Assembly: GCA_947168335.1 (NCBI GenBank)
Contig: CAMVLM010000007.1
Span: 1 to 49,873, forward strand
DNA: 49,873 nt
Reading direction: 5' to 3'
Source: an uncultured Butyrivibrio sp.
GTDB taxonomy: Bacteria > Bacillota > Clostridia > Lachnospirales > Lachnospiraceae
Shown here: positions 16,974 through 18,910 of the stretch, piece by piece
How the letters are laid out: each line of letters opens with the position of its first letter
How positions within the stretch are numbered: the stretch's first letter is position 1
Translations under genes and position numbers: made by a program
The notes under the pieces: model-generated
What the model saw: the letters and a program-made list of their open reading frames with translations, nothing else
What the model was told of the DNA's origin: nothing
Databases searched by the model: none

Positions 16974-18431
16974 CTACAAGCTGATTATCTTACCATCCTT
17001 AATAAACATTCTTTCCGAAGCTACGTTATTGACAAAGGTCTTATCATGAGAAACAAACAATAACGTTCCTTCGTACTCTTTAAGAAGCCTCTCAAGTGCT
17101 TCAATCGAGGGAATATCCAGATAGTTTGTAGGCTCATCCAATATCAAAAGATTAACGTCCGACACAAAAAGCATTGCAAAGGACAGTTTCATTCTTTCGC
17201 CTCCGGATAATTCCGATGCCTTCTTCTGAATATCCCTTTCAGTCAAAAGAAGTCTTGCCAGAATAATTCGCGCAATGCTCTCCTTCTGGATACTCACATT
17301 CCTTACATTCTCAAGCACTGTTTTATTCAGATCTATCTGAGACATATTCTGTCTTGCATAACCTATTTTAGCTCCGGGTACAACATAAACGCCTTCTCTT
17401 TTATCAATCAGTTCTATCAGCGTTGTCTTTCCTGCTCCATTCTCGCCAACAAGAGCCACCTTTGATCCGTTCCGAATCATAAAATCAGCGTCGTCAAAAA
17501 TAAGCCTTTCATCATAACCAAAAGTAAGATGTTCACCTCTGATGACTATGGGATTTCTCGGCGGATTGGTCAGCCTGAAGTCAGGCCTTGCAACAGGTTC
17601 TTCCTTTGGCTTTTCCTTAACCTCCATGTGCTCAATGCGCTTCAAAACATTCTCCGCACTCTTCTCCATGCTTCGTGCCTTATCTTCAGGCTTTCTGTTT
17701 CCGCAAAGAGCAATTGTCTTAGCCTCACTTGCAGATATATTTCGCGGCTTTTTTGCAACGCTTTTAGCCTTGGCCTTTTTCTGACGATAGACACTCTCCA
17801 ACCTGCGTTTTTCTGACTGATAATTCTCGTATTCGGCATACTGACTTTTTCTTAATTGCTCTTTCTGTTCAAGATAGTCATCATAGTTGCCATTAAAAAA
17901 ATTCAGTTCTCCGAAAGACACTTCAACAATCCTGTCACACACCTCGTTCAATAAATCTCTATCATGGCTTATCAGAACCATTGATTCTATCTCTTTAAGT
18001 CGCTTCTTCAGAATCTCAACGCCTGCGCTGTCGAGATTTGAAGTTGGCTCATCCAGAAAAGCCACCGCACTCTGGCTTGAAAACAGTTCAGCCAGTCTTA
18101 TTCTCGTATCTTCTCCACCACTGACATTTTCCTGCCATAACTGGTCACCTACTCCCATTTTCCCGGCTTCGGCATAATCCGTTTCATAATATGAATCCCC
18201 GGTCCCAAACTGTTCAAAATAAAACGGTACGCAGTTAAGCTTCACTGTACCGGATGAAGGAGCAAGCTTCCCTGACAAAACTTTCAGAAGAGTTGTCTTT
18301 CCGGCTCCGTTTACGCCAACAAGCCCAACTTTTTCGCCTTCATACAGATAAAACCTGTCAAAATCCAAAACAATCTGCTCACCGTAAATCTGTTTTATAT
18401 TCTCTGCACTTATAAGTATTTTTCTGGCCAT
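16974..18431 (-). CDS. ABC-F family ATPase, ribosome protection (antibiotic resistance) type
   Basis: A soluble protein of 485 residues with two ABC ATPase domains and no membrane segment. Domain 1 has Walker A GVNGAGKTT near residue 38, signature VSGGEDTR and Walker B AVAFLDEPTSNLD; domain 2 has GENGAGKTT near residue 330, ELSGGERMK and LLILDEPTNYLD. Between them lies a long, basic coiled-coil linker (about residues 185-270) that in this class reaches into the peptidyl transferase centre. The truncated first domain and long linker resemble the Lsa/Vga/Msr resistance group more than housekeeping EttA/Uup. I start it at ATG 18431 because AAAGGAGG lies just ahead; the ATG at 18455 overlaps the stop of a leader ORF. 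The long leader suggests drug-inducible expression. Drug range cannot be read from sequence. Confidence 0.9.
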   Translation of the reverse strand: MARKILISAENIKQIYGEQIVLDFDRFYLYEGEKVGLVGVNGAGKTTLLKVLSGKLAPSSGTVKLNCVPFYFEQFGTGDSYYETDYAEAGKMGVGDQLWQENVSGGEDTRIRLAELFSSQSAVAFLDEPTSNLDSAGVEILKKRLKEIESMVLISHDRDLLNEVCDRIVEVSFGELNFFNGNYDDYLEQKEQLRKSQYAEYENYQSEKRRLESVYRQKKAKAKSVAKKPRNISASEAKTIALCGNRKPEDKARSMEKSAENVLKRIEHMEVKEKPKEEPVARPDFRLTNPPRNPIVIRGEHLTFGYDERLIFDDADFMIRNGSKVALVGENGAGKTTLIELIDKREGVYVVPGAKIGYARQNMSQIDLNKTVLENVRNVSIQKESIARIILARLLLTERDIQKKASELSGGERMKLSFAMLFVSDVNLLILDEPTNYLDIPSIEALERLLKEYEGTLLFVSHDKTFVNNVASERMFIKDGKIISL

Positions 18432-18454
18432 ACGCACCTCCTTTCCAAGAATCA

Positions 18455-18508
18455 TTATCCAAACAGAATCATCTTTTTCTTTAAATCATCTAAAATTACT
18501 TTTTCCAT
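18455..18508 (-). CDS. Leader ORF 2 (17 codons) just upstream of the ABC-F gene
   Basis: A short ORF, MEKVILDDLKKKMILFG, has a full AGGAGG ribosome binding site 9 bases ahead of its ATG, so it is very likely translated. Its stop codon overlaps an ATG in the ABC-F frame (TAATG) and lies 24 bases before the preferred ABC-F start. It resembles no protein I recognise; its likely role is as a leader peptide whose translation sets access to the ABC-F ribosome binding site. Confidence 0.65.
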   Translation of the reverse strand: MEKVILDDLKKKMILFG

Positions 18509-18599
18509 TATGTCTGTCCTCCTAAGCAAGTAAATATATTTCGAACGCGCATCCATAGCGGAACGCTTTTATCTTATAGGGAATCTGACGGATTTTCCT

Positions 18600-18637
18600 A
18601 TAAAAATAAAAAAATCCGAATGCATTGCGCATCGGAT
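18600..18637 (-). terminator. Intrinsic terminator inside the ABC-F leader (candidate attenuator)
   Basis: On the minus strand ATCCGA and TCGGAT close a stem that also contains TGC/GCA pairs, followed by TTTTTTTATTTTTA. It lies between the promoter at 18882-18910 and the ABC-F gene, so full-length transcripts must read through it. Confidence 0.85.
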
Positions 18638-18723
18638 CATCTGAAAAAGCATATTCTATTATCAGTTTGTAAGTACATAATTAAAGTGTGAAAGCCGCAC
18701 TAAAAAAAGGCAAACAAAAAGCA

Positions 18724-18813
18724 CTAATTCCACTGATATAAGAAATGCCATAGAATGATTGATCTACGCAACGCAAATAAATCCCTCTCGGGAAACTTTC
18801 TGCATTTACTCAT
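18724..18813 (-). CDS. Leader ORF 1 (29 codons) upstream of the attenuator
   Basis: An ATG-started ORF of 29 codons, beginning MSKCRKFPERDLF and ending LYQWN, lies 70 bases after the likely transcription start and about 87 bases before the terminator hairpin. An AGGTGA stretch 9-14 bases ahead could serve as ribosome binding site. Two shorter overlapping ORFs of four codons also have good sites just ahead (GGAGGTAAAGGAG). Translation is not proven; the position is right for a drug-sensing leader peptide. Confidence 0.45.
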   Translation of the reverse strand: MSKCRKFPERDLFALRRSIILWHFLYQWN

Positions 18814-18881
18814 AAATCATTATCACCTATTCCGCATCTCCTTTACCTCCGAATTATGTGCCTGGAAACTAACCATTAATA

Positions 18882-18910
18882 TTTGTAACACCTTTGCATA
18901 AATCCGTCAA
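18882..18910 (-). promoter_or_regulatory. Promoter of the ABC-F leader transcript
   Basis: On the minus strand TTGACG and TACAAA are 17 bases apart, with TG one base ahead of the -10 (TGTTACAAA, extended -10). It lies after the terminator of the glycerol operon and about 450 bases before the ABC-F start. Confidence 0.75.

Follow-up and report, generated by a model that had tools for sequence, protein, structure and literature searches.

Transcription attenuation through an anti-antiterminator, an antiterminator, and a terminator has been described experimentally for the ABC-F gene vmlR of Bacillus subtilis, whose uORF encodes MIN (PMC9226507). The same logic was described experimentally for cplR of Clostridioides difficile, with the uORF consensus MR[I/M] (PMC10201436), and the uORFs MK[L/Q] and MAGN are listed for VmlR2 and LsaA, respectively (PMC9226507, PMC10201436). 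In vmlR, a hairpin that sequesters the SD serves as a second gate (PMC9226507). The mef/msr(D) operon places an MFS gene and an ABC-F gene behind the leader peptide MTASMRLR (PMC4335068, PMC10314930). Here, we analyzed an ABC-F gene and its leader in a 49,873-nt stretch of Butyrivibrio DNA (hereafter, the window), which corresponds to contig C7 of the genome. Its features are collected in Table 1.

Results

The protein encoded downstream of the leader scored 459.6 bits against NF000355 (ribosomal protection-like ABC-F, NCBIfam), for which the cut-off is 380, while it stayed under the NCBIfam cut-offs of the named subfamilies Vga (466.6/725), Msr (439.1/680), and CplR (392.7/780). By profile score, the gene is a ribosome-protection-type ABC-F with a predicted role in resistance, in agreement with the original prediction made from the same DNA. 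The nearest solved chain is 7nhl, which is annotated as a lincosamide-streptogramin A resistance protein. The ORF is full length, and a close homologue was detected in 26 of the 79 genomes of the genus, including the window's own. Translation is predicted to start at 18431, where ATGGCC follows AAAGGAGG. The orthologues begin at this same position, and not at the ATG of the upstream TAATG that the original prediction placed in the ABC-F frame. Another close ABC-F orthologue (L046) carries a different leader, in which the ORF MSSMRIEVVTENSWMTSVCAF precedes a GGCCGTG/CACGGCC terminator within ~300 nt upstream of the start (3001). This observation suggests leader turnover among the ABC-F orthologues.

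Table 1. Features of the ABC-F locus in window coordinates, listed in the direction of transcription.
Feature	Position	Strand	Evidence
Promoter TTGACG, 17-nt spacer, extended -10 TGTTACAAA	18882-18910	-	Kept in seven relatives
SL-1, predicted long hairpin (anti-antiterminator); 5' side holds uORF SD, start, and stop	18721-18862	-	z -3.43; RNAalifold; model R1
uORF ATG CGG AAT AGG TGA (MRNR*), SD GGAGG at 18846-18850	18823-18837	-	Reading frame, SD, and final Arg codon conserved
Predicted antiterminator 5' strand GCGTTGCGTAGATC, inside SL-1 3' side	18761-18774	-	Masked folding, shuffle control
Predicted inner antiterminator helix, 5' strand GCATTTCTTATATCAGT	18732-18748	-	Folding
Predicted inner antiterminator helix, 3' strand ACTGATAATAGAATATGC	18649-18666	-	Folding
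GATCCGATGCGCAATGC, 5' arm plus loop of terminator; also predicted antiterminator 3' strand	18622-18638	-	Masked folding
Intrinsic terminator, hairpin and U-tract	18602-18637	-	Folding; kept in relatives
Dispersed Butyrivibrio repeat at terminator U-tract, 67 bp	18547-18613	-	DNA search (leader query 288-354)
17-codon ORF, SD AGGAGG at 18518-18523	18455-18508	-	blastn to relatives' MFS start
ABC-F ribosomal-protection-type protein, 485 aa	16974-18431	-	NF000355; start matches orthologues

An alignment of the regions upstream of ABC-F was uninformative because several relatives carry an MFS gene there, and the leader was therefore searched as DNA. Among the 79 genomes of the genus, 48 gave any match, many of which were matches to a dispersed repeat, and leaders of 74-77% identity were obtained from six other genomes. 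Adding L064 to these six gave an alignment of eight leaders (the window and seven relatives), in which the promoter, GGAGG, a tiny uORF, and the terminator are kept, while the flanks diverge. The promoter, composed of TTGACG at 18905-18910 and TACAAA at 18882-18887 preceded by TG, is present as originally predicted and is kept in all seven relatives; a simple promoter scan missed it. The terminator hairpin (18614-18637) and its U-tract (18602-18614) fold at -11.5 kcal/mol with a z of -2.66, and this score together with the conservation in the relatives makes the terminator more than a chance structure. It was also missed by a simple scan, probably because of a one-base bulge. This hairpin with a U-rich tail had likewise been predicted, and every string listed there was located in the window.

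In the window the uORF reads MRNR*, and the aligned relatives have MLNR*, MLRR*, MRR*, or MLIR*. More distant leaders carry MRNR* (L006 and L056, the same peptide as in the window but with a different stop codon), MLNR* (L062), and MSNR* (L119 and G036), with MRISRI* of L011 as an exception. It is a conserved leader ORF, which is presumably translated. The uORF ends 9 nt upstream of a 29-codon ORF (ATG at 18811-18813, stop at 18724-18726), to which the sensing had been attributed. This longer ORF is absent from seven of the seven aligned relatives, which have GTAAGTAATAG there, with no ATG and with in-frame stops, and it was rejected as the leader peptide.

For the window and its relatives alike, the ribosome-free leader folded as a single long hairpin, denoted SL-1, with z values of -3.43 for the window and -4.71 for L066. 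RNAalifold assigned 57 pairs to SL-1 over the eight sequences, and 94.0% of its cells were paired, compared with 38.5-48.1% when the partners were slid. Its covariation score exceeded all 500 shuffles, and the two-sided changes were few (4 pairs). A covariance model of the window-type leader, denoted R1, matched 12 of the 79 genomes in the genus, and among 397 Lachnospiraceae genomes it matched only that of the window.

A ribosome on the uORF was modelled by masking the stretch that it would cover. When the complete terminator was present, most leaders still favoured it despite the masked uORF, so that the switch would depend on the order in which its parts are transcribed. Folding was therefore carried out on transcripts that stop within the terminator loop, and the results are equilibrium thermodynamics at these chosen ends. 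Masking raised the expected pairs of the window's 17-nt terminator arm from 3.7 to 12.1, and a rise was obtained for eight of the eight leaders. No dinucleotide shuffle matched this change in the window (0/200) or in L066 (0/200), whereas the masked level of the window, as distinct from the change, was reached by 32 of 200 shuffles. When only long-range pairs were counted, 10 of 11 window-type leaders shifted, and L056, which did not, already had a fully paired terminator arm when free. Hence, in these models, the leader sequence can switch under masking. The original prediction had proposed a search for an antiterminator using the 5' arm ATCCGATGC, and such a structure exists in silico, with GCGTTGCGTAGATC (18761-18774) as its partner. 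Although their sequences differ, L066 and L064 preserve the pairing of the inner antiterminator helix. The antiterminator of the window is weaker than those of the relatives, and extra sequence lies before its terminator. In a whole-leader fold of the window, computed on this single leader, the ABC-F SD pairs with U-rich leader sequence.

The leaders of the relatives (the six and L064) precede a gene of MFS transporter type. In four fully read loci, this gene encodes 424 or 428 aa and is followed, after a short spacer, by ABC-F; the contigs of G009 and G031 end near the MFS gene, and the adjacency to ABC-F rests on the other four loci. The MFS protein reached 39.9 bits against a Mef(A) cut-off of 675. 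By blastn, the SD and start region of the 17-codon ORF matched the start of the relatives' MFS gene with E ~1e-4 to 1e-8 in most loci compared, and the N-terminal alignment pairs MEKVILDDL of this ORF with MEKTVLNDL of the L048 transporter. The stretch from its stop into the ABC-F SD (TAATGATTCTTGGAAAGGAGG) is similar to the end of the L064 transporter gene (TAATCAGATTCCTTCGAAAGGAGG), and its stop is written TAATG, where the MFS stops of the relatives read TAATCC or TAATCA. Because it aligns with the start of the MFS gene, the 17-codon ORF is most likely a deletion scar rather than a designed gate. The ORF matches the start, and probably also the stop, of the MFS gene, nearly all of which was most likely taken from the window's operon by the deletion. 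The exact breakpoint of the deletion is ambiguous, and a frame change may also be involved at the end of the ORF. In the protein tree, the window's ABC-F groups with L010 (support 96/95), which is on the same contig as L064 and whose operon has the transporter; this grouping fits a derived loss of the transporter.

These comparisons bear on the scheme of the original prediction, which assigns sensing to the 29-codon ORF and treats the 17-codon ORF as a second, translational gate linked to ABC-F by TAATG. The window does contain both ORFs, the latter with its full AGGAGG, but none of the seven aligned relatives has the first, and the second coincides with the MFS gene start. Since TAATG is also not conserved and ABC-F has its own AAAGGAGG and start, the scheme is highly improbable, and the 17-codon ORF was rejected as a designed gate. 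A two-layer arrangement would moreover not be new, as the SD-sequestering hairpin of vmlR has already been reported (PMC9226507).

An intact MFS transporter, 74% identical, was found elsewhere in the same genome (L152, contig C52), with AGGAGGACATAATA before its start. No leader of the window type was recognizable upstream of it, where R1 gave only weak matches with the filters off. The host genome is incomplete, with some estimated contamination, and hence no weight was put on this transporter.

The dispersed repeat at the U-tract (window 18547-18613 and loci L095-L107) begins in a T-run and contains the hairpin ATAGGAAATTCC..GGATTTCCTAT, followed by AAAAAGCGCTCCGCTATGGATGCGC. Each of the 13 aligned copies has a T-run on its 5' side, and several of these T-runs clearly end a terminator hairpin. 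The repeat looks like an element sitting at terminators.

It could be considered that the leader has decayed in the window genome through loss of the transporter and insertion of the repeat, which would leave ABC-F constitutive or not expressed. The R1 score of the window, 116.9 bits compared with 167-182 in the six closest relatives, points in this direction, as do the deletion scar, the repeat at the U-tract, and an orphan decayed leader elsewhere in the same genome. Decay is nevertheless quite unlikely, given that the window retains an intact promoter, uORF, terminator, and predicted switch together with a full-length ABC-F ORF.

Other Butyrivibrio ABC-F genes are preceded by a different leader, denoted type A, in which the uORF reads MIIR* in 11 of 14 aligned sequences. 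RNAalifold predicted 52 pairs for this type, 10 of which had at least one two-sided change, and, with only long-range pairs counted, the masking shift was seen in eight of eight type-A leaders to a varying degree, being weak in L034. At an E threshold of 0.05, a covariance model of the type-A sensor hairpin (R2) matched 38 of the 397 Lachnospiraceae genomes, which belong to 36 of the 334 genera. The uORFs read at the R2 loci are mostly MxIR* or MxNR*; they were called automatically, and a few miscalls could be recognized by eye. The next gene has an ABC-F-like start in most cases. Three of these next genes, each cut by the end of its locus, were scanned and gave Lsa-type and general ABC-F models as the best matches, below the curated cut-offs. 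R2 gave no match to the window leader at E up to 5, which means that the two leader types share a design but not a demonstrated origin; their common descent is plausible. Rfam families gave only tRNA matches in the window and no leader match in nine loci at a relaxed threshold. No description of a Lachnospiraceae MxxR* leader was found in the open literature searched, outside which most subscription papers lie.

The window's genome also contains a type-A leader (L134, G000:C30:21014-21111) with the uORF ATG ACG ATT AGA TAA (MTIR*). Its terminator is present and no long ORF lies directly downstream; it is classed as an orphan or decayed leader. In more distant ABC-F relatives (L067, L068, L069, L071, L072, L074-L077, L079, and L084), a hairpin of the type ATCCCTC..GGAGGGAT is followed immediately by a T-run and the start codon. 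The SD of the gene thus seems to double as the 3' arm of the terminator, as in cplR.

Discussion

The leader of the window is very probably a ribosome-stall transcription attenuator of the ABC-F gene. This explanation is well supported because the promoter, uORF, and terminator are conserved and the masked folding shifts; the parts, their conservation, and the in silico switch were all observed here. RNA polymerase would start just after 18882 and transcribe the MRNR* uORF. When a ribosome finishes this uORF and leaves, SL-1 (~18721-18862) would form and sequester the uORF region, leaving the terminator 5' arm free, so that the terminator would form and transcription would stop at ~18602. A ribosome held on the four-codon uORF by a ribosome-targeting drug would occupy the 5' side of SL-1 and release the 3' side for pairing with downstream RNA: 18732-18748 would bind 18649-18666, and 18761-18774 would bind the terminator arm at 18622-18638. 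This would block the terminator and allow ABC-F to be transcribed. In the close relatives, the same leader would drive both the MFS transporter and ABC-F. That the uORF is translated and that a drug induces expression by stalling a ribosome at a given position on it are inferred here. The read-through logic of the original prediction is well supported by comparison and by ribosome-masked folding, although its leader peptide was wrongly assigned; of its 17-codon ORF, the presence with a full AGGAGG stands, and the role as a translational gate is unsupported, given the MFS alignment and the absence of TAATG in the relatives.

A refinement of the attenuator explanation is that the stall is specific to the peptide or the stop codon (e.g., macrolide arrest with Arg as the acceptor, or at termination), making the final Arg-stop the sensor. 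Most uORFs seen retain the last Arg, whether encoded by AGA, AGG, or CGA; MRLR occurs within or at the end of macrolide leaders (PMC4335068); MsrDL stalls at its own stop codon (PMC10314930); and the operon of the relatives pairs an MFS transporter with ABC-F, like mef/msr(D). Against this, several uORFs lack a final Arg (MRI*, MFI*, MRY*, and MRISRI*), and the MFS protein is far under the Mef(A) cut-off. The Arg codon also adjoins a conserved GATAAT or GGTGATA helix that could explain its conservation, and the conservation may partly reflect the helix beginning there. An Arg-stop sensor is hence possible but doubtful. It is rather unlikely that M-x-[I/N]-R-stop is an undescribed peptide-specific arrest motif with a drug-dependent stall at Arg/stop, acting family-wide and, in Butyrivibrio, also controlling an MFS and ABC-F operon.

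The recurrent Arg-stop ending of the uORF is nonetheless the part that could go beyond known attenuators, and a possible role of the conserved last Arg codon in stalling becomes testable. The uORF consensus and the two covariance models make the leader class searchable. The distribution suggests that, in rumen and gut Lachnospiraceae, control of ribosome-protection genes by drug-sensing RNA leaders would be widespread. The 17-codon ORF further illustrates that the reading of a single sequence can take a gene-deletion scar for a regulatory ORF.

The type-A leaders resemble that of the window in their four-codon uORF pattern, in silico switch, and host family, and differ in that R2 has no match to the window. 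The mef(E)/mel(msr(D)) system is alike in that a single attenuated promoter serves both an MFS and an ABC-F gene, as in the window's relatives, and in that its leader ends in Arg; it is unlike in its eight codons, MTASMRLR, compared with the four of MRNR*, and the MFS protein of the relatives is not Mef(A) by cut-off. The vmlR leader of B. subtilis shares the tiny uORF in a 5' anti-antiterminator hairpin, the antiterminator, the terminator, and the downstream ABC-F gene, while it uses MIN where the window type uses MxxR*. To our knowledge, the vmlR operon has no MFS gene. An SD-sequestering SL-4 and a NusG-dependent pause are described for vmlR (PMC9226507). In cplR of C. difficile (uORF MRI), also of the Clostridia, a short uORF is sequestered in a 5' hairpin, with a terminator and an antiterminator before ABC-F; its terminator sequesters the gene's SD, whereas that of the window lies ~170 nt upstream of the ABC-F start. 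The window leader has a short uORF with an SD in a 5' hairpin, a terminator between uORF and gene, and, in silico, an antiterminator that is favoured with a ribosome on the uORF. Its assignment to the attenuators of the vmlR and cplR kind, from which drug sensing would follow, is well supported by these models.
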